Of a stretch of 64,000 nt of DNA, positions 31,514-55,865 are shown one piece after another. Source of the DNA: a virus. The position numbers and the translations under genes are program-made. Positions within the stretch are counted from its first letter, which is position 1. Each line of letters opens with the position of its first letter. The notes beneath the pieces are model-generated. The model had not been told where the DNA came from and searched no databases. It worked only from the letters and a program-made list of their open reading frames with translations. The stretch lies in IMG/VR virus record IMGVR_UViG_3300029448_000013, positions 1 to 64,000 of that record. One strand, 5' to 3'.

Positions 31514-31810
31514 TCAAGCAAAGTTAACAGACACAGTTCCAGTGCCAGTAATCTGAACGAATATTCCGTTGGCTACTAGAACACCATGTAGGTCTTGCTC
31601 AATGGTTTGAGCAGTTCCTCCTGCATGTAATACTAGTCGAGCAACCTCCTTCTTGCTCGTTGTTGTGGAGTTGTCACTGTCCCATATCTTGACAGTCATT
31701 ACAGCGTTTGCTGTTGATGTAGCGTGAACACTCATTATCTTAGCATGATGTTTTACTGCTACTGTGCTTGTAGAAAGAACTCCGGTACTGTTGCAGGTAG
31801 GTGATGCCAT
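31514..31810 (-). CDS. small beta-rich structural protein candidate (98 aa)
   Basis: Ala/Thr/Val-rich, all-beta in appearance (TSTANAVMTVKIWDSDNST, GIFVQITGTGTVSVNFA), with no Cys or membrane segment. It starts at an ATG overlapping the upstream stop (TGATG) behind GGAGG. Size, composition and position three genes after the major capsid protein suggest a capsid-decoration or virion protein. The function is inferred only. Confidence 0.65.
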   Translation of the reverse strand: MASPTCNSTGVLSTSTVAVKHHAKIMSVHATSTANAVMTVKIWDSDNSTTTSKKEVARLVLHAGGTAQTIEQDLHGVLVANGIFVQITGTGTVSVNFA

Positions 31811-32295
31811 CACTCTGCCTCCGACAATCTCTCTACTAGGTCTGCTTTCTTTCCTTCTGTGGAAAGACCCCTTTCTGTCAAAACAACCTTTAGTTCCTTA
31901 ACGGTTAGTTCTGACCAATCCATATCCAATGGTGCTTCACCATCTTCTACGGCTTCTTCTACCACTGGCTCTTCGACTACGGGAGTCTCTTTGATGAGTT
32001 TAGGAATGAATGACTTCTTTGCTGAAGGGAACATAACTGCTCTTACTGCTTTAGCATCTCCTTCGACATTGAACTCTTTCTTCAATAAGTTAAGTAGATA
32101 GTCATTCAATTGTAGTATCTCTGAAGAATCTGAAGCATCGAACTCTATTGTTATTCCTGAGTCTCCTAGCATTCCTATTGCTATTCCTAACGGAACTTTC
32201 GTTTCTTCTTGCGCTGTTAATGCATATGTCTGACCGCCTCTTCTCAAAAGAAGTGGCCCTGACACTCTATGTCTTGCTAACTTTACCTTTGCCAT
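31810..32295 (-). CDS. capsid-region protein with a C-terminal SAP-like domain (161 aa)
   Basis: Residues 1-90 are alpha/beta (MAKVKLARHRVSGPLLLRRG). A Glu/Val/Pro-rich linker follows (ETPVVEEPVVEEAVEDGEAP). The last ~35 residues, WSELTVKELKVVLTERGL then GKKADLVERL, match the helix-turn-helix pattern of SAP domains (L-x-x-x-L-x-x-x-G then G-x-K-x-x-L-x-x-R-L). SAP modules bind DNA or proteins, and in viruses they occur in capsid-associated proteins. It lies after a stem-loop separating it from the capsid gene pair, with AGGTGAT in front of its ATG. Confidence 0.72.
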   Translation of the reverse strand: MAKVKLARHRVSGPLLLRRGGQTYALTAQEETKVPLGIAIGMLGDSGITIEFDASDSSEILQLNDYLLNLLKKEFNVEGDAKAVRAVMFPSAKKSFIPKLIKETPVVEEPVVEEAVEDGEAPLDMDWSELTVKELKVVLTERGLSTEGKKADLVERLSEAE

Positions 32296-32750: not shown

Positions 32751-34112
32751 TCACGCACTCTTGATGTTGGTTATCTTTCCTTGTCCCTTGAAGAACGAAC
32801 ATCCGGTCTCAGCCATAGTTCGGTACATTCCTTGGTTTCCAAGTTTGCCAACACCGAATGGGTTTCCACTAGTGATACCATCCTCGAAATACTGAGTAGG
32901 CTTCATTACAGACAACCACATGTGGTCTGTGTCTAGAATGAGTATGTCACTCAGTTCGTTGGTTGTGTTGCTACCAGTTGATGGCATGTCCTTGGTTGGA
33001 ATGATTGGTATGTCATAGTATGTTGCAACTCTGAATCCAACCTCTGCACCCTTAACTCCACGAACTCCGTTGTGGGTAGGTACGATTTCTTTCCTGTCCA
33101 TGAACCTCTCTTGGCTTTGTAGCAAGTCAGCAAGGTGCTGTACGGTATCGTATCCTGTTAGGATAACTTTCGGGTTTCCGCCGTTCTGCCTGATTCTCCT
33201 AATCATGTCGTTAAGCATGGTTAGTGTTAGAACTCTAGCATCGCTAGCACCATATCCTGCACCGAAGTCAACCTCTGCATCCAAGAAGGAAGCAGTTCCA
33301 GTTGCAGCGTTGCTGGATACAGAGACAGTTCGGCTAGTACCGAATAGTCTTACTACATCAGCAACAACAGCAGAGTTGTCTGCGTTGTTAGCACCAGTGT
33401 CCAATAGGTTTGCGTTGTACATAGCAGCGATTTCACCAGCAGATGAAACAATCTTTAGTAGAGAAGTATAGTTTCTCTCGATTGTTGTTGCAGTACCGTC
33501 ATCGTATCTCTCAAGAGGCATAACTAGCATCTTGCTCTGAGTCTCTGCGTGTAGTTTACCCATGTCCTCACGAACGATTGCACGAATGTCACCAACACCG
33601 TCATCAATTGCAGCAAGTTCCATTCCAAGTTCTGAGAACTCGAATAGATGTGCAACAGTCTTTGGACTAATGTATAGTTTCTCATACTGTGGTGCAATAG
33701 GTGGAATATCGTTTCCAGTTCCTAGAGTTGCGTTCTCACCAACACCACCGATTTTGTCTGCTCTTGGTGTGTCTGAACCTTCTGCGCCAGTTCCTATTCC
33801 GAATGCAGAACCTGAACCTCCTTCTGCTCTGCTCTTTAGAACTCTCCATCCACTAGATGTGTATGGTCTCTTTGCGAGCATAGCAAGAGGGTTAACCTCT
33901 TGGTTTAGCATTGACCATACTTTCTGTCCGTAAAGAACATTGTATAGGTCTCCTAACCCACTAGCAGCAGAAAACGGGTTGCTTGCTGCATCGTGGGGCG
34001 TTCCGAAACCACCAACGACACCAGCCGCTTTCAACAGGGCGTTACCTGATGCGCCAGCATAGCCGTATGTGGCTGCTTCTAAGTCTTTTACTGTGTTAAT
34101 ATATCCACTCAT
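32751..34112 (-). CDS. major capsid protein, HK97-fold candidate (453 aa)
   Basis: Follows the protease-scaffold gene directly, the canonical order. It shows an Ala/Gly-rich N-terminal arm (residues 1-50), a segment near 60-75 (YGQKVWSMLNQEVNPLAMLA) typical of the start of HK97-fold capsid subunits, a spine-helix-like region (SELGMELAAIDDGVGDIRA, then REDMGKLHAETQSKML), and a late region LTLTMLNDMIRRIRQNGGNP, ILDTDHMWLSVMKPTQYFED that corresponds to the A-domain. Codon use and ribosome site suggest high expression. It lacks the Trp tag found on nearby small proteins. No protease cleavage site could be fixed by inspection. Confidence 0.88.
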   Translation of the reverse strand: MSGYINTVKDLEAATYGYAGASGNALLKAAGVVGGFGTPHDAASNPFSAASGLGDLYNVLYGQKVWSMLNQEVNPLAMLAKRPYTSSGWRVLKSRAEGGSGSAFGIGTGAEGSDTPRADKIGGVGENATLGTGNDIPPIAPQYEKLYISPKTVAHLFEFSELGMELAAIDDGVGDIRAIVREDMGKLHAETQSKMLVMPLERYDDGTATTIERNYTSLLKIVSSAGEIAAMYNANLLDTGANNADNSAVVADVVRLFGTSRTVSVSSNAATGTASFLDAEVDFGAGYGASDARVLTLTMLNDMIRRIRQNGGNPKVILTGYDTVQHLADLLQSQERFMDRKEIVPTHNGVRGVKGAEVGFRVATYYDIPIIPTKDMPSTGSNTTNELSDILILDTDHMWLSVMKPTQYFEDGITSGNPFGVGKLGNQGMYRTMAETGCSFFKGQGKITNIKSA

Positions 34113-34113
34113 T

Positions 34114-34803
34114 TTAGTTCACCTTCCTTGCGAGGTTGTGTATGTCTCCCCATGACATCTCAGCCATTGCGTCAGCAGTGGTTGGGAATCCTTCAGGTAG
34201 AGAGAAAGCGACTTCTGTTGCTTTCCTTATCTCATCATCCTTTGCGGTAAGAGATTTGCGTAGTTCTGCAAACTCTTCTTTCAAAGCCGCTACTTCTGTT
34301 GAAGCATCGTACTCTGCTCTCTCTGCTGCTGATTTCTTAACATCGAGTTCAGCAGCGAATCTGTCAGCAAATGTCTTCGATAGGTTATCGTAAGCCATTG
34401 CTTCTAGTTGCTCTGCTTTGTAAGCCTCGTAAGCCTTCTCCACATTCTCAGCACTTAAGTCAAGAGTAGTAAAGTCCGTACCTTCTAGACCCTTAGAGAC
34501 AGATAGCGCAGCAGGAGCAGCCTTTGGCTTTCCGCCACTTACTACTTCTTCTCCGGCCTCGTAATCTCTTGTCGAGTCCTCATCGAGAGCCTTATCCATG
34601 CTCTCAAGTTCGTCTTCCTTCATAGACATTTTATCTTCCATGTCCATGCTCTCCACTTCTTCTTCTTTCATCGTTTCTTCTTCATCTTTCATTTCCATTG
34701 TCTCCAATTCACTTTCTTTTGTTATAGAGTCACCAGTGACTTCTCTGACTTGCGTTAGCAATCCATTGAGTTCTTCCAGTGCTTTCTCCAATTTTTCCGT
34801 CAT
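34114..34803 (-). CDS. internal-start scaffold protein nested in the protease gene (229 aa)
   Basis: Exactly at the protease/scaffold boundary there is an in-frame ATG (codon 181, MTEKLEKALEELNG) preceded by AAAGGAGGT at 6-base spacing, the best ribosome site in the region. Independent initiation here would give free scaffold protein in excess over the protease fusion, as in the nested C/Nu3 genes of phage lambda. The product is coiled-coil and acidic and carries the C-terminal MSWGDIHNLA peptide. Confidence 0.72.
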   Translation of the reverse strand: MTEKLEKALEELNGLLTQVREVTGDSITKESELETMEMKDEEETMKEEEVESMDMEDKMSMKEDELESMDKALDEDSTRDYEAGEEVVSGGKPKAAPAALSVSKGLEGTDFTTLDLSAENVEKAYEAYKAEQLEAMAYDNLSKTFADRFAAELDVKKSAAERAEYDASTEVAALKEEFAELRKSLTAKDDEIRKATEVAFSLPEGFPTTADAMAEMSWGDIHNLARKVN

Positions 34804-35343
34804 ATTTCTACCTCCTTTCTCATGTTTTAGTATGTCGAATTTTGCTTCGGGGTTAATCCCCTTCTCACAGATAGTAACTTCATGCAACTCTAGGTTGTCA
34901 ATCTCGTTGTATTCTCCGTATTCCTCTGATTTTCTTTCTCTTTTAGAAATGGCTTGTCCACCTATGCTAAATGACCGAAGAGTTCCTTTTCTGATACTCC
35001 TGTTGATTTCTTTTGCTTTTTCTATGTCATCTCTCATTTTGATGACTACATAGAAGCCAACACCATCTACTCCTGTTTTGTGTAATACACCATTAGTATC
35101 TCGATACTGTTCAATAACTTCTCCAACTTGAACATTAGAATGATTGGACATAACGTTCCTGTAAGATTTTTCAGTCATGAAATCTTTAACAGCCTTTTCT
35201 AATGCTTCTAACGTGATTAAATCATTTTGTTTGTCAACTATTTCTATTGATGCATAACCACCAATCACTAGATTATCAGACTTAAGTATTTGAAAACTAG
35301 CAGGGCTATCCTGCCTAATTAATACTTCCTGCTGTGCAAACAC
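34114..35343 (-). CDS. prohead protease fused to scaffold domain (409 aa)
   Basis: Residues 1-180 form a protease domain of the XkdF/U9-like phage maturation type: IGGYASIEIVDKQNDLIT, the putative catalytic His in SNHSNVQVGEVIE (H68), the nucleophile in RSFSIGGQA (S126) and a third acidic or His position in LELHEVTICE (H154/E155). Residues 181-409 are acidic, Met/Glu-rich and coiled-coil (EMKDEEETMKEEEVESMDME), typical of scaffold. The protein ends MSWGDIHNLARKVN, the same Trp peptide found at the start of many neighbouring proteins. It cleaves scaffold and possibly tagged cargo during head maturation (family knowledge plus inference). Confidence 0.88.
   Translation of the reverse strand: MFAQQEVLIRQDSPASFQILKSDNLVIGGYASIEIVDKQNDLITLEALEKAVKDFMTEKSYRNVMSNHSNVQVGEVIEQYRDTNGVLHKTGVDGVGFYVVIKMRDDIEKAKEINRSIRKGTLRSFSIGGQAISKRERKSEEYGEYNEIDNLELHEVTICEKGINPEAKFDILKHEKGGRNMTEKLEKALEELNGLLTQVREVTGDSITKESELETMEMKDEEETMKEEEVESMDMEDKMSMKEDELESMDKALDEDSTRDYEAGEEVVSGGKPKAAPAALSVSKGLEGTDFTTLDLSAENVEKAYEAYKAEQLEAMAYDNLSKTFADRFAAELDVKKSAAERAEYDASTEVAALKEEFAELRKSLTAKDDEIRKATEVAFSLPEGFPTTADAMAEMSWGDIHNLARKVN
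34806..34820 (-). promoter_or_regulatory. internal Shine-Dalgarno AAAGGAGGT for scaffold start
   Basis: The minus strand reads GAAAGGAGGTAGAAATATG. The purine block lies inside the protease reading frame and decides an internal initiation at 34803. Its strength exceeds most gene starts in this window. Confidence 0.7.
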
Positions 35344-35382
35344 AACACAGCACCTTAAACTCTTACTATATTAAATAGGCGT

Positions 35383-37947
35383 TTATTCAGGTAATTGTAA
35401 ATTACTATACTTGTCCTTGGTGATGTCGATAATTCCTTCATCGGATGAGTCTTCTAACATCTCTTGTTTCTTTCCTGTAAATACTATCCAAGACTTCTTT
35501 TCATCTAGTGGAACAACTCGGAAATGTATTCTAGATTGAAACTTGTCTCCTTCCATTCTATATTCATGGTATCCATCTCTTTGAACACCAAAGATTAACT
35601 CACCACTATCTAGTATTTTACTGCTGTCTATCTTCTCTGAAACCATTGCAGGGAATTTTCCTGACTTACCAAACAAATCGAATATGTCTTCAGGTTTATC
35701 TATATCAATCAACCAAGCCATTCTTTTGTCATCTGTCTCGATTATAAAATCGATGTTTCCATCTTCTCGTTGCCTAACCTCAAACTCTCCTGCTAGTTCT
35801 TCTTCTTCGTCTTTTTCTATATTCTCAGGAGACACATCGAATCTGTTTGGAGAAAGGAAAACAAAAGCGTCTTGATTTTTCAACCAAGCAAGTAGTTCTT
35901 TTGGTTTACCTTCAAAGATTTCATCATATGCGTCTTCCTCTGTAATCCTGAGTTTTTCTTCTAGTTCGTCAAACTCTATTGCTTTTTGATTGTCTTCTAT
36001 GATTTTTCTAATCGCAACCCTTAGTTTTGACTTTCTAGATTTCATCAGTTTCTCTAGTTGACCTTTCCAGTCATCCATATTGTAAAGAGCATTCTTCTGC
36101 ATCAGTGAATCACCATCGAACCCATAGACAGTGAAACCTTCTAAGTCATGTTTGCAGATTATCTCTGCTTCACCGTGAACGTAATCTGTAACAATATACT
36201 TCCTTATCTTCTTCTTGTTCTTTCTCTCTCTTTGAAGTTCTGCTATCACAGTAAGAGGATTAGCCAAATCTGATGGTTTCATGAACGGATGTCTAGGCAC
36301 TAGTGCTTTCTTAGTCTTAGATGCCAGTTGTTCTAGGGTCTCTAGTTTATCTGATTCATCTACTTCAGGCAACTCTATCACTTTAGCAGAATAGAGGCTG
36401 AAGCCCTTTCCTTTCTTAGTAACCTCATCAACCTTAACACGAATGATTGTGCCTATGTCAACCTCAACTTTAGTATTCAATGCCTTACCAACAGGAAGAT
36501 AGTTCTTATCATCAAGTTCTATTGTCTTCATCTCTCTTGTTTGTTCCGCAGTTAATGGGCCAATTCCCATAGTGTAGGAATGTAGGCCGCTTTTTGTTTT
36601 CTTATCCTCTAAAACTATTACATCCAAATCAACGAACTTCTTCCATTTAATCCACTTCGGGTTTTTCTTTCTACCCATGTAGTATGTTGATTCTATGTCT
36701 TTAATGACAACACCTTCTGATGTAGGCATGTCCATGATTTTCTCTGCGTATTCTCCGACTTCTTTCATAGAGTCAGCGATTCTTGTATCTTTCTTAGAAG
36801 GAAATGCCAACTCATCCGATGAGTGTTGTGAGTATTGGTAGAACATAATGTTGATTCTTTCTCTCAAAGGTTCATCCATCATATCCTTGCCTTCGTGTTT
36901 CATCACATCAAACACATGCGCTCTGAGTTTTGTATCGGGTATCTTCTTCTTGAAGATGTGAGTAATCACATTCGCTCTATGTAGCGCATCATCTCCTTGG
37001 AAGAGAAGAAGTTCCCCGTCTAATATACAGTCACCAATTCCCTTCTTTTCCATTTTCTCTACAATCTCAGGACACTTATCTGTTATGTCCTTTTGATTAT
37101 ATGAGTATATTTTGATATTGTCTCCTACTTTGTGAATCTGTATTCTCATCCCGTCATATTTTTCTTGAACAACGTATTCCCCACTTAGACCCTTGATGTC
37201 TTTCATGTCATCAAGTTCAAAGATACGATACATTGGTTTGTTAGGCACAATAAAGTCGATATCTTCTTTCTCTTCTTCTGACTTTGCAATATCTATATCT
37301 TTCAAAGATTCCCACTTGTCTTCGGAATAACTTTCATTATACACTTCTTTCAGTAGAGAAAGTGCCTCCTTGAATTTTCCTTTGACTCTCTTTGAATCTT
37401 TGTCATCTCCGTAATGTTCTATGATGTAAAGTGGAATGTCTTTCTCCTCTAAATCTAATCCCATAAATCCTTGAGTTATTTCATCAGGTTTCAATTCGTT
37501 CTCCTCCCATGCTTTCTTGGGTATTGGATTTGAGTGGCTTCTCAATGCATAGTGAACGAAGGCTGCAAAGGTTGCTTTATCTTCCAACAATACCTCTAAC
37601 ACCTTGTCGCCTAATTGTTTTGAGAATGGGTCTGATGCACCCTTTGATTCAAATCTCATCCTCTTTACATCTTCATAGATTCTCCTAGCAAGGAGACTTT
37701 CAGCATCATATACCTTATTGTCAAAGAGTTCTTTTTCTTTGATATGTTCTTTCAGTTCAGAAGCAAACTCTCCTAGTCCGTCATACTCTTCACGTATGGA
37801 CTTGACAGTTGACTTCCACTTCTTACCGTATTCCTTCGGATTTTCCTTTGCAGATAGATATGCATAACGTACTCTCTCAAAGAAATCTAAAACTCTTTTT
37901 GATAGAGCCTTAGTTTCCTTTTCAAAGGACACGCCTGATGTTGTCAT
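35383..37947 (-). CDS. ATP-dependent DNA ligase with long N- and C-terminal extensions (854 aa)
   Basis: Nucleotidyltransferase motif I EKYDGMRI (Lys263 as AMP acceptor), motif III DCILDGELLLF, motif IV SEGVVIKD and motif V PKWIKWKKF are all present. An OB-fold follows (LDVIVLEDKK, GTIIRVKVDEVTKKGKGFSL). The N-terminal ~240 residues are helical, as in archaeal and eukaryotic ligases. After about residue 540 there are ~310 extra residues, including WIVFTGKKQ near the end, which faintly recall LigD-type phosphoesterase regions. It seals nicks in viral DNA. Unusually, it is encoded inside the capsid gene block, between small head genes and the protease-scaffold. ATP dependence follows from the family. 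Confidence 0.88.
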   Translation of the reverse strand: MTTSGVSFEKETKALSKRVLDFFERVRYAYLSAKENPKEYGKKWKSTVKSIREEYDGLGEFASELKEHIKEKELFDNKVYDAESLLARRIYEDVKRMRFESKGASDPFSKQLGDKVLEVLLEDKATFAAFVHYALRSHSNPIPKKAWEENELKPDEITQGFMGLDLEEKDIPLYIIEHYGDDKDSKRVKGKFKEALSLLKEVYNESYSEDKWESLKDIDIAKSEEEKEDIDFIVPNKPMYRIFELDDMKDIKGLSGEYVVQEKYDGMRIQIHKVGDNIKIYSYNQKDITDKCPEIVEKMEKKGIGDCILDGELLLFQGDDALHRANVITHIFKKKIPDTKLRAHVFDVMKHEGKDMMDEPLRERINIMFYQYSQHSSDELAFPSKKDTRIADSMKEVGEYAEKIMDMPTSEGVVIKDIESTYYMGRKKNPKWIKWKKFVDLDVIVLEDKKTKSGLHSYTMGIGPLTAEQTREMKTIELDDKNYLPVGKALNTKVEVDIGTIIRVKVDEVTKKGKGFSLYSAKVIELPEVDESDKLETLEQLASKTKKALVPRHPFMKPSDLANPLTVIAELQRERKNKKKIRKYIVTDYVHGEAEIICKHDLEGFTVYGFDGDSLMQKNALYNMDDWKGQLEKLMKSRKSKLRVAIRKIIEDNQKAIEFDELEEKLRITEEDAYDEIFEGKPKELLAWLKNQDAFVFLSPNRFDVSPENIEKDEEEELAGEFEVRQREDGNIDFIIETDDKRMAWLIDIDKPEDIFDLFGKSGKFPAMVSEKIDSSKILDSGELIFGVQRDGYHEYRMEGDKFQSRIHFRVVPLDEKKSWIVFTGKKQEMLEDSSDEGIIDITKDKYSNLQLPE

Positions 37948-37953
37948 CCACCA

Positions 37954-38475
37954 TCAAAACCTTCGTGACATAGGAGTTCTTTCTAAATCTCTAGTGGGTA
38001 GTCCAGTTGGGGTTAACGCTTTGATTTTGTCAAGTTCTTTTTCCATGTTTCTAGTGATTTTCGTATACTCATTTCCACTTGTTCCTCTTGGAGAGTTTGC
38101 TAGTGCTTCTGTTAATTCCTTGAGTCTATTCAATGATGCATTCATCTCACCGCTCACCATATCTCTTGCTTCTTGCTCTGCCATAACTTTCAGCAAGTCA
38201 TCAACAGCAGCCAAGATGGATTTCTTCATAGTACCATCATTGACTTTATCCTCTTTGCCTTCGATGTTGCTCAGGTCTCTCATCTGAGCGATGAAAGGAC
38301 CAGTCAGATTGACTTCTGATGGTTTTTTCTTGGGCTTCTTGACTTTCATCTCTTCTCCCATGACATCCTCATCAAGTTTCAATCTTCCAAGATGCCCTGC
38401 ATCTTGTAGAATCTCTTTGGCTTTCAGTATTGCTAATTCAATTATTTTCTCTTCTTTCGTAACTCTTTCCGGCAT
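37954..38475 (-). CDS. helical head-region protein (173 aa)
   Basis: Mostly helical and charged: EEKIIELAILKAKEILQDAG, a Lys/Pro stretch KVKKPKKKPSEV, then KSILAAVDDLLKVMAEQEA and KITRNMEKELDKIKAL. It ends in a basic tail (RDLERTPMSRRF). It begins behind GGGGTGAATTAA and is followed within 6 bases by the ligase. No family is recognised. Composition and place fit an internal head or scaffold-accessory protein, but this is inference. Confidence 0.65.
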   Translation of the reverse strand: MPERVTKEEKIIELAILKAKEILQDAGHLGRLKLDEDVMGEEMKVKKPKKKPSEVNLTGPFIAQMRDLSNIEGKEDKVNDGTMKKSILAAVDDLLKVMAEQEARDMVSGEMNASLNRLKELTEALANSPRGTSGNEYTKITRNMEKELDKIKALTPTGLPTRDLERTPMSRRF

Positions 38476-38480
38476 TTAAT

Positions 38481-38705
38481 TCACCCCATTTTCTCCGCCA
38501 TCTTGCGAATCTCATCCCAAGACATTTGACCACCATCAGGTACTTGCGTATTCGCAATTACTGGTGTTGGAGTTTCACGAACAACCAATCCTGATTTCAT
38601 CAGTATGTTGTCTTTGTTGTATACTGCTTGTTCCAAGGCATTTACCTTGTTCACAAGTTCTTTCATTAATAGTAACATTTCATTTTTTTCTTCTTTCTTG
38701 CTCAT
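38481..38705 (-). CDS. coiled-coil protein ending in the Trp peptide (74 aa)
   Basis: The first half is a coiled coil (MKELVNKVNALEQAVYNKDN), followed by a Pro/Thr/Val-rich linker and the C-terminal peptide MSWDEIRKMAEKMG. The same peptide type ends the protease-scaffold protein and begins many small neighbouring proteins. That makes this gene a candidate scaffold-accessory or cargo protein with the tag at the opposite end. Confidence 0.68.
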   Translation of the reverse strand: MSKKEEKNEMLLLMKELVNKVNALEQAVYNKDNILMKSGLVVRETPTPVIANTQVPDGGQMSWDEIRKMAEKMG

Positions 38706-38707
38706 CT

Positions 38708-39025
38708 TTAATACTTCCTTTCTTCCCCTTCTAGTCTGAAACTTAATTCACCATCTGAACCAGTAAATATTGCGCTGTATCCTTTATCGCCATACAACTC
38801 TCTCGCCACTTCTTGTGCCTTCTTCTCTGACATTTTCAAGTCAGTGAGTTTAATGCTTGCATATCTTTCTTTCTTTTTACCTGCTTCGCTTATTATTGGG
38901 TCTACTTTCTCTCTAAACAAATCAATATACTCAGGCATTGATAAATCGTCATTACTGTTATTACTAAACTCTGATTCTCTAGGATTCCTTATCGGTGGTG
39001 CTTTTAGTATATCATGCCATGTCAT
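38708..39025 (-). CDS. Trp-tagged small protein, MTWHDILK (105 aa)
   Basis: Begins MTWHDILKAPP, the shared N-terminal peptide. The remainder is alpha/beta and highly charged (DLFREKVDPIISEAGKKKER, KKAQEVARELYGDKGYSAIF, DGELSFRLEGEERKY), without Cys or membrane segments. It overlaps no neighbour but follows a 59-residue tagged gene by direct stop/start (TAAATG). The body resembles no family I can name. Confidence 0.7.
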   Translation of the reverse strand: MTWHDILKAPPIRNPRESEFSNNSNDDLSMPEYIDLFREKVDPIISEAGKKKERYASIKLTDLKMSEKKAQEVARELYGDKGYSAIFTGSDGELSFRLEGEERKY

Positions 39026-39205
39026 TTAATTTCCCCTCGCTTTCTTGTTTCTCTCACGTATCATAGCCAACAGTTCTGCTTCTTTATCCTCAGTCCTCTT
39101 GGCCGCTTCTTCGTCTTGTCCGGTAGAGGCTGTCGTTGTAACTCTTGCCATTGGGTCAGACTTCTCTGCACCACAATCTCCCTTTAGTGTTTCAAACCAA
39201 CTCAT
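39026..39205 (-). CDS. Trp-tagged mini-protein, MSWFETLK (59 aa)
   Basis: ATG at 39205 with GGTGATTTAGA directly upstream, translating MSWFETLKGDCGAEKSDPMA..., ending with a basic helix (EAELLAMIRERNKKARGN). The stop TAA is followed at once by the ATG of the next gene. It is short, but the ribosome site, the shared N-terminal peptide and the tight packing all support a real gene. Function unknown. Confidence 0.68.
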   Translation of the reverse strand: MSWFETLKGDCGAEKSDPMARVTTTASTGQDEEAAKRTEDKEAELLAMIRERNKKARGN

Positions 39206-39211
39206 TCTAAA

Positions 39212-39481
39212 TCACCTTTTCATTCTACTATCTATATCATAGCCAAATACTTTAGATTCTCTACCATCATAAAACTCTTGAAACTCTTTTAAGAGTCTTG
39301 CAAGTTTTCTAATTTTAGATAGTTCAAACTCATCTTTTTCTCTTAGACCATCATTAGCCACTAATAACGTATCTTCAAACTCATCTAATCCAACATCTCT
39401 AATTATATCTGCCAAAGCATTTCCAATATCACTTTGATATGGTGCTACACCATCTTCTTTAATCACTTCTTTCCAACTCAT
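39212..39481 (-). CDS. Trp-tagged small protein, MSWKEVIKED copy 1 (89 aa)
   Basis: Starts MSWKEVIKEDGVAPYQ. The body is charged and helical (LADIIRDVGLDEFEDTLLVA, KLARLLKEFQEFYDGRES). Its first ten residues are identical to those of the next upstream gene, and the ribosome-site region is similar, indicating a duplicated 5' cassette fused to different bodies. Function unknown. Confidence 0.7.
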   Translation of the reverse strand: MSWKEVIKEDGVAPYQSDIGNALADIIRDVGLDEFEDTLLVANDGLREKDEFELSKIRKLARLLKEFQEFYDGRESKVFGYDIDSRMKR

Positions 39482-39482
39482 T

Positions 39483-39761
39483 CTAATCCATCCTTTTTAA
39501 TGCATATGCGAATGCAACATCTTTTAGTTCCTTTTCTGACAATTCATTGTCTTGTAGTCTTTCATAAAATTCCATCAATCTGTTAGCCTTAGCGGGGGTT
39601 AATCTTCCCCCTCTCTGTTCTAATTGTTCTCCAAAAACTTGTTCAACTCTTAACGTGTTATACTTCTTACCATGTATGGTAACTTTTTTGTTAGAGTGTT
39701 GGTCGAACATCTCTTCAACATCATTGGTTTTATCTTCTTTGATTACTTCTTTCCAACTCAT
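39483..39761 (-). CDS. Trp-tagged small protein, MSWKEVIKED copy 2 (92 aa)
   Basis: Starts MSWKEVIKEDKTNDVEE behind AGGTGATTTAGA. The body continues MFDQHSNKKVTIHGKKYNTL, then EQRGGRLTPAKANRLMEFYE. It is basic overall and unlike the body of its neighbour, although the first ten residues are identical. No family recognised. Confidence 0.7.
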   Translation of the reverse strand: MSWKEVIKEDKTNDVEEMFDQHSNKKVTIHGKKYNTLRVEQVFGEQLEQRGGRLTPAKANRLMEFYERLQDNELSEKELKDVAFAYALKRMD

Positions 39762-39831: not shown

Positions 39832-40155
39832 TCATTTTTTCTTCTCTCCTTTTGGATATGCTACACTTCTAATTTGACCATACAATGTTTCGTAGTCTTT
39901 ACGAAGTTCAGCAGCACTTGCGAGTATATCTAGATTTTTTTCACTAAATGATTTTACTTTTTTAGTAAGTAATTTATCGGACTTAACAACATCAAGTTCT
40001 TCTAGTTCTTTAATGAGGTCTTCTAACTTAGTCATCTCCTGACCCATGTATTCGTTTGGTTGAGTTGATTGTAGAAGTTTTTTAATTTTCTTCTTTTGTT
40101 TAGGCTCTAGTTTTTCTAGAAAATCTGATGCCTTCAGTATCTCCTGCCACGCCAT
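39832..40155 (-). CDS. Trp-tagged small protein, MAWQEILK (107 aa)
   Basis: Starts MAWQEILKASDFLEKLEPKQ, a variant of the shared N-terminal peptide, behind AGGAGAGAACAAT. The body is almost entirely helical and very Lys/Glu-rich (KKIKKLLQSTQ, TKLEDLIKELEELDVVKSDK, ELRKDYETLYGQIRSV), ending in KGEKKK. It could bind DNA or pack inside the head. No family is recognised. About 70 bases without a gene separate it from the next gene downstream. Confidence 0.68.
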   Translation of the reverse strand: MAWQEILKASDFLEKLEPKQKKKIKKLLQSTQPNEYMGQEMTKLEDLIKELEELDVVKSDKLLTKKVKSFSEKNLDILASAAELRKDYETLYGQIRSVAYPKGEKKK

Positions 40156-40176: not shown

Positions 40177-41295
40177 TCAGTTAATGTTGATTGCCCTTGT
40201 TTTGTTATCTTCTAGTTTAAATTTATATTTTCCTACTGTAACACTAATCAGTTTTTTCATTTTCTGATGTGTCTTGTCTAACACCGCTACTTTGGTTTCT
40301 TCTACTTCGTTGTTTCTCATGTTCAAAACCATTTCTAGAATCTCTTCAACCTTGTCTATTAATGTAGGGATTTCTGCTGCTATACTGCGGTAGTTATCAA
40401 ATATCTCTAGTTGTTGCTCATAAATTTTCTTACCTTCTTGAGTTGATTCATCTATTCTTTGTGGAAACATCACTCCTCCGATATCCACTACGTCTGCATC
40501 AACTTCTCTTCCCAATGCAAATTTCCAATTTTCATCTTCAGCATCAAGAGATTTGGTTAATGTTGATTCTTGTAACTCTTTGATTCTATCTAAGGTAAGA
40601 AGTATCTCTCTCATTTTTGTCAATAGTATATCAGGGTTTTCAGGAAGATTATCAATATCTATTTCTTCAGTTTTTTCTAACATAGAAGTAACCTTGTCTA
40701 ATGCTCCTCTAGTCATTTTTTTACCCGTAAGCAATCCTCTTGGCATATCAGCAGCCGCTTCAAAAAACTCTCTTAATATTTCAAGAGATTCTTTACCGTT
40801 GTATGTTTTTTCTACCTGAGTATCAAAAGCATCAGTGTCACCTGAAATTGTTATTCCTAAATCTTCAGCATCCCGAAAGAATAGTTCCAACAAATTGTTT
40901 GGTGCAGTTTTTTGTATAATACTCTGATAAAAATTATCTATCTTTTCTTTACTTCTAGTTCTAGGTATGAGATATGATTTGCTAAATTCTATCATTGTTC
41001 CACGCATATCTGAATCAGTAACATCAGCAGTTCTACTAAATCTTTCTAGAATCTCTGTCCACATTGTAACAGTAGTTGCTAACGCATCTGCTCTTTCCTT
41101 TGCTGCTTCTGATTGTCGGGCTGCTTGTTCTGATTCTTTAGCCTCTTTTTCTGATTGTCGTTTATCCCTTGCTTCTACTTGCTTAGGAGTTAACTGGCGT
41201 ATTCCTTCGTCAGTATCTTCTTCTGTTTCAGCAGTGAAATCAGTAATATCAAGCGATTTCTTTTTACGCAAGATATCCATAAAATCCTGCGACAT
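40177..41295 (-). CDS. large helical protein with a degenerate tag, MSQDFMDILRKK (372 aa)
   Basis: N-terminus MSQDFMDILRKKKSLDI keeps the '-xDILxKK' part of the shared peptide but has lost the Trp, while its leader (GATTTAGATG) resembles the leaders of tagged genes. The body is a long coiled-coil-like protein: QSEKEAKESEQAARQSEAAK, NKDELx-type acidic helices, then IRELQES and a beta end KKLISVTVGKYKFKLEDNK. No enzyme motif visible. Internal head protein or scaffold accessory by inference. Confidence 0.65.
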   Translation of the reverse strand: MSQDFMDILRKKKSLDITDFTAETEEDTDEGIRQLTPKQVEARDKRQSEKEAKESEQAARQSEAAKERADALATTVTMWTEILERFSRTADVTDSDMRGTMIEFSKSYLIPRTRSKEKIDNFYQSIIQKTAPNNLLELFFRDAEDLGITISGDTDAFDTQVEKTYNGKESLEILREFFEAAADMPRGLLTGKKMTRGALDKVTSMLEKTEEIDIDNLPENPDILLTKMREILLTLDRIKELQESTLTKSLDAEDENWKFALGREVDADVVDIGGVMFPQRIDESTQEGKKIYEQQLEIFDNYRSIAAEIPTLIDKVEEILEMVLNMRNNEVEETKVAVLDKTHQKMKKLISVTVGKYKFKLEDNKTRAININ

Positions 41296-41300
41296 CTAAA

Positions 41301-41531
41301 TCATCCCCAAGGATTGTTTGGTGTTTTTGACCTCTTCTTTTTAGGCAGTAAAATAGCATCGGGAACATCTCTTGTATCAGGAGATTTCTTTTCCACAGCA
41401 TTAGGGTCAATACCACCAACAGAATAATCTCTGTTCTTAGTGGCATTCCTACTGTGGTGAGCATATTGCTCTGCTCTTGCGTTCGCTAGTTCCCTTTCTA
41501 ATTCTTTTACTCCTTTCTTTTTTTCTGTCAT
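41301..41531 (-). CDS. small basic protein (76 aa)
   Basis: Sequence MTEKKKGVKELERELANARA, then YAHHSRNATKNRDYSVGG and a basic end LPKKKRSKTPNNPWG. Helical N-terminal half, disordered C-terminal half. It starts behind GGGAGGAAAAGAA and overlaps its upstream neighbour by four bases. No Trp tag at the start. Function unknown. Confidence 0.62.
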   Translation of the reverse strand: MTEKKKGVKELERELANARAEQYAHHSRNATKNRDYSVGGIDPNAVEKKSPDTRDVPDAILLPKKKRSKTPNNPWG

Positions 41532-41779
41532 TTCTTTTCCTCCCTTAATTGTTTGAAATCTTCTCTATCGATGTCTCCATCCTTGTCTTTATCTAGTTTC
41601 TTTTGTCCACCATAAAGTGTCTTTTCCATTTCTTCAGCAACAGCAGGGTCAACTGGATGTTCTCTTGCTTCATGCATATCTCTAGCAGGTTTGATTTTAC
41701 CTTCTTCTGTATCCATCATATCTCCACCATCATCAGGCATTGGCATGTCAATTTGTTTGATTACATTCCACCAGTTCAT
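41528..41779 (-). CDS. Trp-tagged EF-hand protein, MNWWNVIK (83 aa)
   Basis: The ATG at 41779 (GGTGAGAGAG upstream) gives MNWWNVIKQIDMPMPDDGGD, a member of the shared N-terminal peptide series. Near the C-terminus the loop DKDKDGDIDREDF has acidic residues at positions 1, 3, 5, 9 and 12 and Gly at 6, the canonical calcium-binding EF-hand loop, flanked by helices. An in-frame GTG four codons upstream is less likely. Calcium binding within the virion would be a reasonable inference. Confidence 0.7.
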   Translation of the reverse strand: MNWWNVIKQIDMPMPDDGGDMMDTEEGKIKPARDMHEAREHPVDPAVAEEMEKTLYGGQKKLDKDKDGDIDREDFKQLREEKK

Positions 41780-41784
41780 CTCTC

Positions 41785-42072
41785 TCACCACAGTTTTTTA
41801 CATGCTAGGCACTTGGGGGTAGTAATTCTACCTTTACATTGGTCACAGTTATGCCTTGCTCTGAAATTCTTTCTCCTAGCAGGGTCTTTGTGTGTTCCAC
41901 CACCACGATTCTTACCCTTTCTCTTGTAATTACCGTAGCCTTTAGCACCAGCATGAATCTTCTTTCCTTCATGAGTTAGCATCATTATCTTCTTACCATC
42001 TCTGTCAGAAGGATAAACAGTGCCAACTCTCATGTCTTCCTTATCTTTCTTAACTACTGTAAACCAACTCAT
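41785..42072 (-). CDS. Trp-tagged zinc/His protein, MSWFTVVKKDK (95 aa)
   Basis: Starts MSWFTVVKKDKEDMRVGTV. The C-terminal half reads RGGGTHKDPARRKNFRARHN, then CDQCKGRITTPKCLACKKLW, with CxxC...CxxC spacing suitable for zinc. The 'HKDPxRRKxFRARHNC' string resembles a short module I recall from structural proteins of marine tailed viruses (recollection, not checked). Very basic. Likely binds nucleic acid or packs with DNA. Confidence 0.7.
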   Translation of the reverse strand: MSWFTVVKKDKEDMRVGTVYPSDRDGKKIMMLTHEGKKIHAGAKGYGNYKRKGKNRGGGTHKDPARRKNFRARHNCDQCKGRITTPKCLACKKLW

Positions 42073-43041
42073 CTAACCCCTCCTCTTGAACCAGCCATGA
42101 AGACCCTCATCTTTTTCTCGGCTAAACGTTCCAGCCTTTCTTTTCTTCGGTTTCCCGCCTCTTCTCTTGTAATCCTTACAAGCAGAACAAGTTGGACGAC
42201 ATCTTCTCTTTGTTCCTTTTGAAGCATCTTTTCTACCACACGATTCTGTTCCGGGTTTGTCATCATCACAAGAAGCACAACTAACCCAATCTTTCACTAG
42301 CATATCTTCCCAAGATTTTTTGACATCCCTATCTAAATACGCATCAGCAATTAGAAGCCCTGCTTCCTTTCCAATTTCGATGTCGCTTGGATAATGGCTG
42401 CCCATTTTAACTCTTGATAGTGATATCTTCCCGGCAAGTTTCATCAACTCCTCCTCTTTGTCAGGATACTCCTTACCTAAAATCTTGGCTAATGCATAGG
42501 CTTCCATCGCATGACCGCTTGGAAAGGATGGACTATCATCTGTATCGGTTGTGGACTCTATCTTGTCTGAAATCTCATATGGTCTTGGTCTTCCGTATTT
42601 CACTTTGAGTTTGATTGTATGGATATCGATATCCTCAATCAAATCCTCTCTATCCTCCTTACTCTCACCAACAACCTTCAACATCATCTCGTTATTGCTT
42701 TCGTCTAGGTCTTCCATTTCTTCATCATCAATCTTGTTAGCGTTCATCATAGCGAGAACTTTAGGAAGTTCCTTCTCATTCTCAGGATGTTTATAGTCAG
42801 GGAAGTCTACATCGAATGAAGGCTCAGACTCAAACAGTCTCCTCTTTTCCTCTGACAGATTCTTAGGAGTGTATTTTGATTCTGCTTTCTTCACCGAGTT
42901 ACCCCAATTAGCAGCACCAACCTTTCTACACTGTACTAATGCACCTGAAGCATAAGCAGAAGGCCACTTCTTGTATCTGCTTCTGACCTTGCGATAACAA
43001 GCATCTTTCTCTTTTTTTAATTCCTCAAACCAAAGAGTCAT
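42073..43041 (-). CDS. PAP2-family phosphatase with tag-like and Cys-rich modules (322 aa)
   Basis: The ATG at 43041 has GGAGG six bases upstream and gives MTLWFEELKKEKDACYRK. Residues 13-48 form a module with WPSAYASGALVQCRKVGA. Residues ~115-236 carry a complete PAP2 signature: K144-x6-R151-P152, PSGH (174-177) and SRVKMGSHxxSD (R210, H216), so phosphomonoester hydrolysis is expected. A second tag-like string, KSWEDMLVKDW, follows the catalytic domain, and then a Cys-rich basic tail (CASC, CGRK, CRPTCSAC). There is no membrane segment, so it is a soluble class-A-type enzyme. A phosphatase in a head-gene cluster is unusual; substrates are unknown. Confidence 0.8.
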   Translation of the reverse strand: MTLWFEELKKEKDACYRKVRSRYKKWPSAYASGALVQCRKVGAANWGNSVKKAESKYTPKNLSEEKRRLFESEPSFDVDFPDYKHPENEKELPKVLAMMNANKIDDEEMEDLDESNNEMMLKVVGESKEDREDLIEDIDIHTIKLKVKYGRPRPYEISDKIESTTDTDDSPSFPSGHAMEAYALAKILGKEYPDKEEELMKLAGKISLSRVKMGSHYPSDIEIGKEAGLLIADAYLDRDVKKSWEDMLVKDWVSCASCDDDKPGTESCGRKDASKGTKRRCRPTCSACKDYKRRGGKPKKRKAGTFSREKDEGLHGWFKRRG

Positions 43042-43141
43042 GCTTTTCCTCCAAATATTTCCTGATTCTTTCATCTGTTTCTGCATTGAGTCTGTCTATT
43101 TCTTTCTTCCACATTTTGACAAACTCAAGTATGTCACTCAA
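43025..43141 (-). CDS. possible coiled-coil mini-protein starting at TTG (38 aa)
   Basis: A TTG overlapping the portal stop, with GAGGAG six bases upstream, opens a frame reading (M)SDILEFVKMWKKEIDRLN... and ending EEKHDSLV. It overlaps the PAP2 start by 17 bases. The beginning 'SDILEFVK' resembles the helix of the Trp peptide without the Trp. Small and TTG-started, so uncertain; a shorter start at the internal ATG is also possible. Confidence 0.4.
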   Translation of the reverse strand: MSDILEFVKMWKKEIDRLNAETDERIRKYLEEKHDSLV

Positions 43142-44763
43142 CCTACTCTCCTCTCTGTTCGTGAATCAACATTCTGATTACCCGCTTCTTGTGGTAATCC
43201 TGTAAATCTCTTGTCAGGGCCAGTTTCCATAGACGGTTTGTTTCTAGTTTCTCCACCGCCTTGACCCACCAATTGTTGTTCTTGTAATTGCCCAAGTTGG
43301 CTTGCATCAATGTCTGTTCCTGCGTATGGGTCAGTTTCTACTTCTCCCTCTGCTCCTTCTTGCGGTGGTGCTTCAGGTTTAGGGTCAGGTTTCTTGAAGG
43401 TGAATCTACCTTCATCATCCATATCGACCTCAAACCCTAGATTCTTAATTGATGCTGCTACGTTAACTTCAATCTCCCTCTTTCGTAGTTTAGCAATCTC
43501 ATCCTCTTCCTCTGATGGAGGTAGTTTCAACTGCCAATCTGTAATTCCGAATTCCTTAGTCATAAATGGAAACACATAATTATTCCAAATAGTCTGTGCC
43601 ATTTCCACTGCTCTATTAGTTACGAGTATCTGCATACCCTCGTTATTCAAACCACCACTGGCAGAGTTGTCTGCCATGAAGATTTTACTCACACCATAGA
43701 AAGCAGCAATCCTATCTCTCAAGTCTTCTTTGACTTGTATGTAATCCATTTCTTTCAGACTATCCATGAACTTGACCCATTCGACACCTCCTTTTCCTTC
43801 ACCTTCTATTCCCATTACAGGAATGAAGTGTGGGTCTTGTTCCATCTTCTCCTTTACACCACGCCAAAATGATTTCATTGACTCCATGTTTCTAGTTTGT
43901 ACAGTCAATATTCCTCTTGGCATTCTCGCTTTGGTATATGATGAGTTGACATAGTTTTCCATTGCAATCAGAGTTGTGATATGATTCCAAAGAGTCATGA
44001 TAGGTGATTGTCCATATAATCTTGAAGGAGAATATTTACTGAAATGTAGGACTTCCCCTTCAATGAATGCCTGTTCCTGACCATTGGCCCTATTCACATA
44101 ATGCACTGGATGTAGTTCAGAACCGCACATCTCACAAGAATCACTCATGCTTCTACTGATATTGTTTCTATGTGTTAAGCAAGTATATCCTTCACTTCCT
44201 CTTTCACCATTTTCATCTGCATAGATATGCATACTAACAGGGTCTCCTCGATAGACTTCCTTTATTCGGTGCATTCTGATATCACCATTTCCATCTAAGA
44301 AGTATTCCTTTACCATTACCATATATGCATCGTCCATGATATTCAAATCATCTTCCATCTCTTTCAAAACATCAACGAATAATTGTTCACCTTTGTTTAC
44401 ATAACCGTCTAATAGTTTCTCAATATACTTCAATTGGCTTCTATCCGGTTTGATTAGATTCGTACTCCCACATTCAACACATTCTGTTACAGCCTGTTTG
44501 TGTTCTCTTCCACAATCACCACAACGTGCAGTGAATTTTTCTTCCCAAATATATCCTCTTCTGAATATTTCATTCTTCAGTTGCGTTATGCACGTTCTAG
44601 CAATCACGGACTGATAAGTAACGTGATAGATTATTGGTGCAGTAATCAAGTACGAAGTATCCTTCTCTTGAATACCCGGATTGTATATCGTTCGGTCTTG
44701 TGGCTTCGGTGTTGTTCTGCGAGTTAATCGCCTAAACAACGAGGGTTTGTTTTCTTCTACCAT
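43138..44763 (-). CDS. portal protein with zinc-ribbon insertions (541 aa)
   Basis: The dodecameric gate for DNA entry, identified by its place directly after terminase and by its pattern: a C-terminal region with VKEDLRDRIAAFYGVSKIFM, LNNEGMQILVTNRAVEMAQT and WNNYVFPFMTKEFGI, typical of SPP1/HK97-type portal stems. The N-terminal third contains Cys pairs CGDCGREHKQAVTECVECG and a second site CLTHR...CEMCG, probably zinc-binding. It ends in a Gln/Gly-rich tail. GAGGAT lies upstream of the ATG at 44763; the ATG three codons earlier is nearly as good. The zinc modules are an elaboration not found in the classical portals. Confidence 0.87.
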   Translation of the reverse strand: MVEENKPSLFRRLTRRTTPKPQDRTIYNPGIQEKDTSYLITAPIIYHVTYQSVIARTCITQLKNEIFRRGYIWEEKFTARCGDCGREHKQAVTECVECGSTNLIKPDRSQLKYIEKLLDGYVNKGEQLFVDVLKEMEDDLNIMDDAYMVMVKEYFLDGNGDIRMHRIKEVYRGDPVSMHIYADENGERGSEGYTCLTHRNNISRSMSDSCEMCGSELHPVHYVNRANGQEQAFIEGEVLHFSKYSPSRLYGQSPIMTLWNHITTLIAMENYVNSSYTKARMPRGILTVQTRNMESMKSFWRGVKEKMEQDPHFIPVMGIEGEGKGGVEWVKFMDSLKEMDYIQVKEDLRDRIAAFYGVSKIFMADNSASGGLNNEGMQILVTNRAVEMAQTIWNNYVFPFMTKEFGITDWQLKLPPSEEEDEIAKLRKREIEVNVAASIKNLGFEVDMDDEGRFTFKKPDPKPEAPPQEGAEGEVETDPYAGTDIDASQLGQLQEQQLVGQGGGETRNKPSMETGPDKRFTGLPQEAGNQNVDSRTERRVG

Positions 44764-44764
44764 T

Positions 44765-46102
44765 TTATTCATCCTCGTTCTTCACTATGGATTCTAATTT
44801 ATCCATTGTTGACATCTTATCGTTGTCGTAGTATTTTACAACGCTGTCTATGTCAATTTCATACTTTGCGAAATCATAGTTCTTATCATCCTTGTGATTT
44901 TCATATTTCATGAGTTTGAATAATTCTACCTTTCTAGCCTTGTACCATCCTGCTTTCTTATGGCTCTTTTTCATGCGAAGTAGTTCTACTAATATCTCAG
45001 CATTTTTCTTCTTCAATCTGAAATATGGCATACATTTGCTTAGTATCTCACCGACATCTTTCCTAGAGTAGAAGTTTAACCTATTAATTGGTTTAGTATC
45101 TTGTGGAGATTTTTGGTCTAGATGTAGTCTACCACATCCTAGAGACTTGTGCATCTCTAACATGAATGCTTTACCTCTATCCCCTGTTGCAACTAATCCT
45201 ACTCTTGGGTTGTGATTCTTATCCATTGTAATGTAGCCATCAGAATCAATAAATGCAGCAGTATAAGCATAGATGTCTTTCTTTATCTCGTCACTCATTT
45301 TATACAATGCACCATCGACAACAGTTACATTTGCAGAACGTGCCATTTTTGAAATCATAGAAGGAGAGGATTTCCTAAAAAGATTCTGAGGCAATCTCTC
45401 ATGTATTTGTCTTGCTGATATTCCCTGCTCTTCACTGACTAGTTTTACTATGTGTCTTTTGATAAGTTCCTTTGGCCCAATATTTACCACATACTTTCTG
45501 ATACGGCTGTTAACCTTCCTCTTACTGTTAGTCATATCCTTAGACAACTTAGCATATTCTTCCCCATATGCCATATCATCTCTATCTAATCTAGATTCCC
45601 AATATTTACAAAGTGTATCTACTATATCTCTACGAGTAGATGCATCATGAATTAAAGACAGTTTAATGATATTCTCTTCTGATAATGTCATATCTTTCAA
45701 TGCAGGTTTGTATTTCTTAATCCAGTATATTTTGTTGATGCTTTCATCTAGATGTGAAGAGTATGCATCAATTAGATTCTCTATCGATTTAGTCACTGCA
45801 AGTTTTGGTTCTCCTTTCAGTGTTCTTCGATATACTTTGAGTTCCTTAATCATGAGTGGAATATCTTTACCTTCTATTTCATATTTTTTCAAATCGTTTC
45901 TTATTGCTTTTCTAGCATCTGAAAGACCTACATTATAATGCTCTGCAAATCTTTTCTCTAATTCAAAATGACTACTCAAGGGCTGTTCTTCTAACCATTG
46001 ACTTTTGAGTTCAGAGGTAAGTGTTTTCTGTCTCTCTCGAAGTTCTTCTTCTTCGTCAGCGAGTTCCGCCACTTCTCTGAGTTTGTCTCCTTTTTCACTC
46101 AT
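44765..46102 (-). CDS. LAGLIDADG-type endonuclease-like protein between terminase and portal (445 aa)
   Basis: Residues around 280-300 read YTAAFIDSDGYITMDKNHNP, one clear LAGLIDADG helix with the acidic catalytic residue, followed by the expected sheet and helices (HKSLGCGRLHLDQ, RLNFYSRKDVGEIL, RLKKKNAEILVELLRM). The N-terminal 270 residues are charged helical with a winged-helix-like region (GISARQIHERLPQNLF). One motif per chain implies a homodimer. It is neatly spaced within the operon and has its own GAGGTGAGAGT site. It could be a free-standing homing endonuclease or a domesticated packaging or regulatory factor. Confidence 0.75.
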   Translation of the reverse strand: MSEKGDKLREVAELADEEEELRERQKTLTSELKSQWLEEQPLSSHFELEKRFAEHYNVGLSDARKAIRNDLKKYEIEGKDIPLMIKELKVYRRTLKGEPKLAVTKSIENLIDAYSSHLDESINKIYWIKKYKPALKDMTLSEENIIKLSLIHDASTRRDIVDTLCKYWESRLDRDDMAYGEEYAKLSKDMTNSKRKVNSRIRKYVVNIGPKELIKRHIVKLVSEEQGISARQIHERLPQNLFRKSSPSMISKMARSANVTVVDGALYKMSDEIKKDIYAYTAAFIDSDGYITMDKNHNPRVGLVATGDRGKAFMLEMHKSLGCGRLHLDQKSPQDTKPINRLNFYSRKDVGEILSKCMPYFRLKKKNAEILVELLRMKKSHKKAGWYKARKVELFKLMKYENHKDDKNYDFAKYEIDIDSVVKYYDNDKMSTMDKLESIVKNEDE

Positions 46103-52705: not shown

Positions 52706-52924
52706 TCACCTCAACCTGAATAAATCCATTTCTTTGATTTTTTTTAGAGCCTCTCTGACATCACTAACATGGTCAGGATTAGTCATATCCTTTGTCTTTG
52801 GTATTTCTTCATGAGCCATATCTTTCAATATATCAACAATATCATCAAACTCAAATGCTAAATCTTGCAATTGCTGATGTGTTTCTCTTAATTGACTACC
52901 CTTCATTATATTTTTCCAACTCAT
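52706..52924 (-). CDS. Trp-tagged mini-protein, MSWKNIMKGS (72 aa)
   Basis: Starts MSWKNIMKGSQLRETHQQLQ behind GGGGAAATTACA. Entirely helical: DLAFEFDDIVDILKDMAHEE, then VSDVREALKKIKEMDLFRLR. The leader and first residues are very similar to those of the next upstream gene (MSWKNILKQ), another sign of cassette duplication. Function unknown. Confidence 0.7.
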   Translation of the reverse strand: MSWKNIMKGSQLRETHQQLQDLAFEFDDIVDILKDMAHEEIPKTKDMTNPDHVSDVREALKKIKEMDLFRLR

Positions 52925-52935
52925 TGTAATTTCCC

Positions 52936-53232
52936 CTACTGTCCTCTTCTTCTAATTGAATCAATAATATCTTTCTCTAACATTTTATCCCAAAATCCAT
53001 CTGCATCGGGTAAAGTTCCATCGGCCTCTATGTCTGCATCCTTTATTAAAAACAAGTATTCAACCAGTTCTCTTAGGTATTTTTCTCCCAATCCCTTTCT
53101 TTCTTCTCCATCATGATGAAAAGACAAAATTCCCCAATAACCCGCATAGAAAACTTCTGCACTTGCCTTTCCATCTTTTGAATCCCAAAAAATTTCTAAT
53201 TCTTCTTGTTTAAGAATATTTTTCCAACTCAT
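52936..53232 (-). CDS. Trp-tagged small protein, MSWKNILKQEE (98 aa)
   Basis: The ATG at 53232 (AGGAGAAGTTACA upstream) gives MSWKNILKQEELEIFWDSKD. The body is alpha/beta: GKASAEVFYAGYWGILSFHH, GEKYLRELVEYLFLIKDADI, DADGFWDKMLEKDIIDSIRR. An upstream in-frame start would read through the end of the preceding gene and is rejected. It overlaps that gene by four bases. No family recognised. Confidence 0.7.
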   Translation of the reverse strand: MSWKNILKQEELEIFWDSKDGKASAEVFYAGYWGILSFHHDGEERKGLGEKYLRELVEYLFLIKDADIEADGTLPDADGFWDKMLEKDIIDSIRRRGQ

Positions 53233-55839: not shown

Positions 55840-55865
55840 CGTTAATCCCATGCCCTCTAAGTTAA

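Follow-up and report, generated by a model that had tools for sequence, protein, structure and literature searches.

Introduction

A short Trp peptide ends two unrelated proteins encoded in the window analyzed here (64,000 nucleotides of IMG/VR virus record IMGVR_UViG_3300029448_000013), a protease-scaffold protein and a small coiled-coil protein, and a similar peptide begins many small proteins encoded nearby. Does a single docking signal serve all of these proteins, or is the work of head assembly divided between different signals? Our preferred answer, to which we give a probability of about 0.6, is that two related Trp helices organize head assembly, with a peptide that we call class H docking proteins on one site and a second class, K, acting as capsid-targeting tags. 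The features on which this reading is built are listed in Table 1.

Table 1. Features of the head-assembly block, in window coordinates
Feature	Position	Strand	Match or remark
Major capsid protein (HK97 fold)	32751-34112	-	PHROG major head protein, E=1e-24; proposed docking partner
Prohead protease (S78) fused to scaffold, 409 aa, Trp peptide at end	34114-35343	-	Pfam Peptidase_S78, E=1e-7; PHROG head maturation protease
Class-H C-terminal peptide MSWGDIHNLARKVN of scaffold	34117-34158	-	Conserved in relatives
Nested scaffold product, 229 aa (predicted)	34114-34803	-	Internal ATG at aa 181 behind AAAGGAGGTAGAAAT
ATP-dependent DNA ligase-like protein	35383-37947	-	
Coiled-coil protein, 74 aa, same C-terminal peptide	38481-38705	-	Putative accessory mini-scaffold
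Class-H C-terminal peptide MSWDEIRKMAEKMG of coiled-coil protein	38484-38525	-	
Tagged protein MTWHDILK	38708-39025	-	
Tagged protein MSWFETLK	39026-39205	-	59 aa; start MSWFETLKGD, Thr at +3
Tagged protein MSWKEVIKED	39212-39481	-	
Tagged protein MSWKEVIKED	39483-39761	-	
Tagged protein MAWQEILK	39832-40155	-	Largest tagged family (44 members)
Phe variant of tag, MSQDFMDILRK	40177-41295	-	
Tagged protein MNWWNVIK	41528-41779	-	
Tagged protein MSWFTVVK	41785-42072	-	DUF5754 domain
Fusion protein	42073-43086	-	DUF5872-like module (MTLWFEELKK), PAP2 phosphatase domain, Cys-rich basic module
Portal	43138-44772	-	
Terminase large subunit	46112-47548	-	
Tagged 612-aa protein MSWQDVLK	50860-52698	-	
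Tagged protein MSWKNIMK	52706-52924	-	
Tagged protein MSWKNILK	52936-53232	-	
Conserved 368-aa protein	53981-55087	-	Cargo-type tag at C terminus (DWRQIVKAVQ) behind charged linker
Tagged protein (MGLT)MSDWTDVLK	55285-55851	-	
Tagged protein MSWFDVLK	55866-56090	-	
Tagged protein MSWEDVVK	56087-56437	-	

Gene order and type of virus

With genes called as simple open reading frames, the minus strand of the window carries genes from ~56 kb down to 4 kb. In the order of transcription, tagged small proteins are followed by the terminase large subunit, the portal, and further tagged proteins, then by the coiled-coil protein, a 173-aa protein, and the ligase-like protein, and finally by the protease-scaffold, the major capsid protein, and an apparent tail module. 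The protein encoded between the terminase and portal genes (44765-46102, minus strand) has similarity to HNH endonucleases and is possibly a homing endonuclease, and a protein encoded shortly past the capsid gene (31810-32295, minus strand) has a C-terminal SAP DNA-binding domain.

The named relatives of the window capsid protein are tailed haloviruses such as HVTV-1, and kinship of the capsid protein with those viruses (Druskaviridae) is a trait of Magrovirales. Family-B DNA polymerase matches were found in 7 of the 8 records tested and not in the window's own 73-kb record, which is possibly partial. Taken together, the capsid relatives, the polymerase in most long relatives, and the published description of magroviruses (PMC12999244, PMC10160649) point to a tailed virus of the magrovirus type, as judged from sequence, and the hosts of these marine viruses are probably archaea. 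One IMG/VR record (G041, 184733 bases) holds two different capsid genes of the window's capsid family and is perhaps a chimeric or concatenated assembly.

A conserved Trp peptide ends the scaffold and the coiled-coil protein

The sequence-only reading of this locus had placed the same Trp peptide at the C termini of the scaffold and the coiled-coil protein, and both endings are exactly as it quoted them. Scaffolds of 80 close relatives end in MSWGDIHxLAR, MSWEDIHALTR, MTWDDVHSLVR, or near variants, and the class-H motif across relatives is M-[SD]-W-x-D-I-H-x-[LMI]-[VA]. Coiled-coil proteins of relatives end in M[DES]WDDIHKxV or variants of it; the window's own coiled-coil peptide has Arg where the motif has His and is thus a variant.

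The peptide is strikingly restricted in its location. In a set of 2485 unique proteins, drawn from gene calls in the window and its relatives, the pattern W-x-[DEN]-[IVL]-[HN] occurred 101 times within 20 residues of a C terminus, and 100 of these 101 matches were in scaffold or coiled-coil homologues (seven truncated scaffolds included). Elsewhere in the same 2485 proteins there were 11 unrelated internal matches and none at N termini. A profile of the coiled-coil body without the peptide detected 83 genes, every one of which ends in the aromatic motif, and it detected none in 26 halovirus or hot-spring relatives. Chance origin of the motif was ruled out by a reversed-pattern control, by the restriction to C termini, and by the conservation in 83 of 83 coiled-coil genes.

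Within one virus, the peptides of scaffold and coiled-coil protein also resemble each other more closely (37.4) than do those of shuffled pairs (34.9), with none of 5000 shuffles reaching the observed value. The likeness was weaker after viruses were collapsed to clades (P values of 0.01 to 0.04 at four of five thresholds, leaving 7 to 22 clades; P value = 0.17 at the threshold leaving only three clades). Over positions +1 to +7 from the Trp, 99.8% of random Trp windows fit the scaffold less well than the coiled-coil peptides do. Given the C-terminal restriction, the conservation in all 83 genes, and the same-virus matching, the common peptide of scaffold and coiled-coil protein is real and conserved, and its two copies are possibly co-evolving.

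The scaffold peptide may be displayed by more than one gene product. The protease-scaffold gene has an in-frame internal start at aa 181 with a Shine-Dalgarno sequence ahead of it (AAAGGAGGTAGAAATATG), and internal starts so preceded that leave 200 to 260 aa are present in 62 of 98 scaffold genes versus 14 of 593 control genes, in most scaffold genes near codon 180. A nested scaffold product made from this start, common to most relatives, is therefore likely on the evidence of these start sites.

Tags mark a large class of small proteins

The N-terminal tag W-x-[DEN]-[IV]-[LIV]-K was present in all 26 records first searched, in which the reversed pattern had no matches. The raw count, which takes in Phe variants, was 359 unique tagged proteins. 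These form 133 families between which no similarity was detected outside the tag, and 82 of the families have a single member. A 24-member cluster of portal fragments, in which an internal FIDVLKE had matched the Phe pattern, was left out; because this cluster inflates the raw count, a more prudent count is ~335 proteins in 132 families. A portal-internal FVDVLKE was also dropped as a probable coincidence. At +3, where the defining pattern of the tag calls for I, V, or L, Ile accounts for 70% and Val for 25%.

Tagged genes lie in the head block. Of 77 tags in nine long records, 75 share the strand of the capsid gene and are situated 4 to 27 kb upstream of it, in blocks that flank the portal and terminase genes, and a single tag was found in ~300 kb downstream of the capsid gene; in the group of relatives called lineage C, tagged genes are mostly downstream of it. 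The tag is also found at C termini, on a conserved protein of roughly 350 to 390 aa, and about a dozen relatives have similar C-terminal tags. In one relative, a 107-aa protein (L179:10633-10956) is tagged at both ends (MWFEILK ... HWTDILKGD). The Cys-rich basic module of the window's fusion protein (42073-43086, minus strand) holds an internal tag-like KSWEDMLVKDW, and this module stands alone, tagged, in relatives L178-L180.

The bodies behind the tags offer few clues to their function. Almost no annotated domains were found in 100 representative tagged bodies, and a PHROG match of one tagged protein to head maturation protease was not reproduced in a scan of ten long tagged proteins. Tagged and other proteins do not differ in net charge; the internal proteins of T4 are basic. 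No conserved protease site follows the tag, positions +6 to +11 being unconserved; cleavage elsewhere is possible.

At the DNA level, Ser2 of MSW tags is encoded by AGT in 97% of cases, compared with 55% for Ser2 of other genes and 26% for Ser overall. This excess goes beyond the start-codon context of other genes and thus suggests, from codon usage, that the tags have partly spread as DNA cassettes. Such DNA-level likeness would also be expected of a tag that has nothing to do with packaging and serves instead as a translation-start element, a host-factor signal, or a degradation signal. We consider that reading very improbable, as the same peptide occurs at C termini, the amino acid changes within it are conservative while other codons vary, its genes are placed in the head block, and cellular genomes hold only a chance-like number of copies. 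Specifically, a defined DNA version of the tag had 18 matches in 257 Gb of cellular genomes, against our own chance estimate of ~11, and none of these matches was in a record titled Poseidoniales. A host origin of the tag is unsupported, the cellular matches being near the chance number.

In viral contigs, by comparison, the tag pattern was found in at least 120 stretches. Among the matches listed, 85 records were retrieved on the tag alone, and 59 of them encode a capsid protein of the window's family; the others examined look like fragments, isolated matches (a few probably due to chance), or ambiguous records with a different gene order, and no tagged virus with another capsid protein was established. 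Some of the records without a capsid gene end before it and some carry this lineage's terminase, portal, or ligase; two (G031 and G045) lack this capsid protein and are arranged in another gene order, which allows either reading of them. The sequence-only reading had named one case as decisive against it, that of relatives with tagged cargo and no peptide on the scaffold; such relatives were sought and not found, and none of the 18 relatives without the scaffold peptide has tags. The marine clades have all three of scaffold peptide, coiled-coil gene, and tags, and the halovirus and hot-spring relatives have none of them; this joint gain or loss is essentially one evolutionary contrast, not many. 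These results support the view that tagged proteins form a sizable and genuine class that, as far as sampling goes, is limited to this virus lineage.

Tag and scaffold peptide share a core but form distinct classes

The cargo tags had been proposed to be the scaffold helix itself, carried at the N terminus. The tags proved real, but the identity did not hold, as W-x-[DEN]-[IV]-[LIV]-K is a class distinct from the scaffold ending. At +4, scaffold and coiled-coil peptides have His and the tags Leu, Ile, or Val; at +5, the tags have Lys (by the pattern used), scaffolds have any residue, and 62% of coiled-coil peptides have Lys. The expected covariation of the tag with the scaffold C terminus was likewise not observed, since in lineage C the scaffold has changed from Ile to Ala at +3 and the tags keep Ile or Val. 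In the same lineage the tag Trp often directly follows the start Met. The literal MSW match is thus in part, and perhaps mainly, a feature of the close lineage. In proteins that start with Met-Ser or Met-Thr, the initiator Met is usually cleaved off. Simple identity of tag and scaffold peptide is thereby weakened, and common ancestry of the two is possible.

How the remaining likeness is to be read bears directly on the mechanism. Whereas 2% of background Trp sites show the core W-x-[DE]-[IV], the proportion is 54% for tags, 68% for scaffold peptides, and 64% for coiled-coil peptides. Beyond the Trp (+1 to +7), however, some 10 to 12% of random Trp windows resemble the scaffold or coiled-coil peptide at least as well as the tags do. 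One reading of these figures is a division of labor like that of T4, in which class-H peptides bind the capsid protein and tags bind the scaffold/coiled-coil core, the likeness between them being superficial. T4 capsid-targeting sequences indeed have affinity for the scaffold core (PMC9026906), and the differences at +4 and +5, the missing covariation, and the modest match beyond the Trp all fit. The enrichment of the shared core and the frequent tag-type Lys of the coiled-coil peptide do not, and we hold this division to be possible, though short of probable.

Another reading is that both peptides are generic helix starts. S/T/D-W-x-D/E resembles a helix capping box, in both classes position -1 holds a residue of the N-cap type and position +2 an acid, and the two differ from +4 to +7, so that convergence without common function could be envisaged. 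That explanation leaves unaccounted for the conserved Trp, the restriction of class H to two gene families, the conservation in every coiled-coil gene, and the joint phylogenetic distribution, and we regard it as improbable.

A proposed docking model

Foldseek searches with a model of the capsid protein retrieved HK97-fold capsids and encapsulins (E values to 3e-10 in the PDB) and the HVTV-1 major capsid protein (1e-25); a PDB sequence search with the capsid profile gave nothing useful. We also modeled a tethered pair with AlphaFold, reading the scaffold C terminus through into the capsid protein with the natural stop as a residue (72-row alignment). The fused model, a monomer, is an HK97-fold capsid protein with a mean pLDDT of 72.5 and a good capsid part, in which the scaffold peptide is a helix at a pLDDT of ~47 to 58, so that its placement is of low confidence; a shallower alignment gave a pLDDT of 34.

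From the observed motifs, their conservation and specificity, their genomic placement, and their joint presence or absence, we infer docking, a partner for it, and packaging as follows. The class-H peptide would dock the protease-scaffold, the probable nested scaffold, and the coiled-coil protein on one site, for which the inner face of the HK97-fold capsid protein is by analogy the likeliest candidate. Docking at the scaffold's own site would make the coiled-coil protein an accessory mini-scaffold. The sister peptide W-x-[DEN]-[IV]-[LIV]-K, at the N terminus or sometimes the C terminus, would load unrelated small proteins into the prohead, and the tags are by the same kind of analogy probably capsid-targeting sequences of the T4 kind.

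The original proposal went further and let the tags mimic the scaffold peptide in the same groove of the capsid protein. The common core, the presence of tags at C termini as well, and the strict co-occurrence of peptide, coiled-coil gene, and tags are in its favor, and encapsulins offer a precedent among the fold matches: their short cargo peptides attach directly to the inner side of a shell protein with the HK97 fold, and the window capsid model matches encapsulin shells, although encapsulins have no scaffold and their peptide sequences differ from those described here. The systematic difference at +4 and +5, the lack of covariation with scaffold changes, and the want of a confident placement of the peptide in the fused model speak against a shared pocket, which we consider possible, though again short of probable. 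In its fullest form, with a single capsid groove reading one code and scaffold, mini-scaffold, and more than 100 cargo families competing for it with W-x-D-I variants, the proposal is in our judgment less likely than not; if it were true, cargo would be loaded by scaffold mimicry, as all would compete for that groove.

Comparison with known systems

The tags of our two-class reading are most readily compared with the capsid-targeting sequences of T4 (IPI, IPII, and IPIII), which are also short N-terminal peptides on unrelated small proteins; a virion location of the tagged proteins here is inferred. Targeting by the IPIII tag MKTYQEFIAE is governed chiefly by the Tyr at residue 4 and the Phe at residue 7 (PMC9026906), and the same aromatic-x-x-hydrophobic spacing occurs in the tags here, with residue roles that are predicted from sequence. 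Unlike the T4 sequences, the tags here have the consensus M-[ST]-W-x-D-[IV]-L-K, mark many more families, and occur at C termini also. A T4-type sequence suffices to package a foreign protein, and it is a propeptide that the prohead protease cuts off at a conserved site; no conserved site follows the tags here. The tags here also resemble the scaffold C terminus, a likeness that we did not see in T4 gp22.

The class-H arrangement recalls the herpesvirus UL26/UL26.5 pair, in which a protease-scaffold and a nested scaffold carry one C-terminal peptide, as the protease-scaffold and the probable nested scaffold do here. As in UL26, a serine protease (here Peptidase_S78) is fused to the scaffold; the protease of herpesviruses has a distinct fold. 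The lambda C/Nu3 genes are another nested scaffold arrangement, and a nested product here would resemble both. In herpes simplex virus 1, the last 25 residues of the scaffold bind the major capsid protein (PMC12474303, PMC12005531). Here, unlike in herpesviruses, a third, nonhomologous gene, that of the coiled-coil protein, has the peptide as well, and binding to the capsid would be the counterpart function.

In phage P22, the scaffold C terminus contacts the N-arm of the capsid protein (PMC12005531). That contact differs from the one proposed here in being made by a helix-turn-helix hook with Arg/Lys contacts and without a Trp peptide. We know of no natural cargo tag in P22. In phage P1, the N-terminal 30 residues of DarB suffice to direct a reporter to the capsid (PMC9024508); the Dar proteins lack a common consensus, unlike the tags here.

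Significance

Capsid-targeting sequences are known from few phages, and we found no description of them in archaeal viruses in the literature searched. The common C-terminal peptide nominates the coiled-coil gene, hitherto without an assignment, as an assembly protein and is a compact candidate docking element for an HK97-fold shell. In these abundant ocean viruses, a numerous and rapidly changing set of proteins, almost all of unknown function, carries a single tag, and the tag alone may therefore predict which proteins are packed in the head and delivered at infection.
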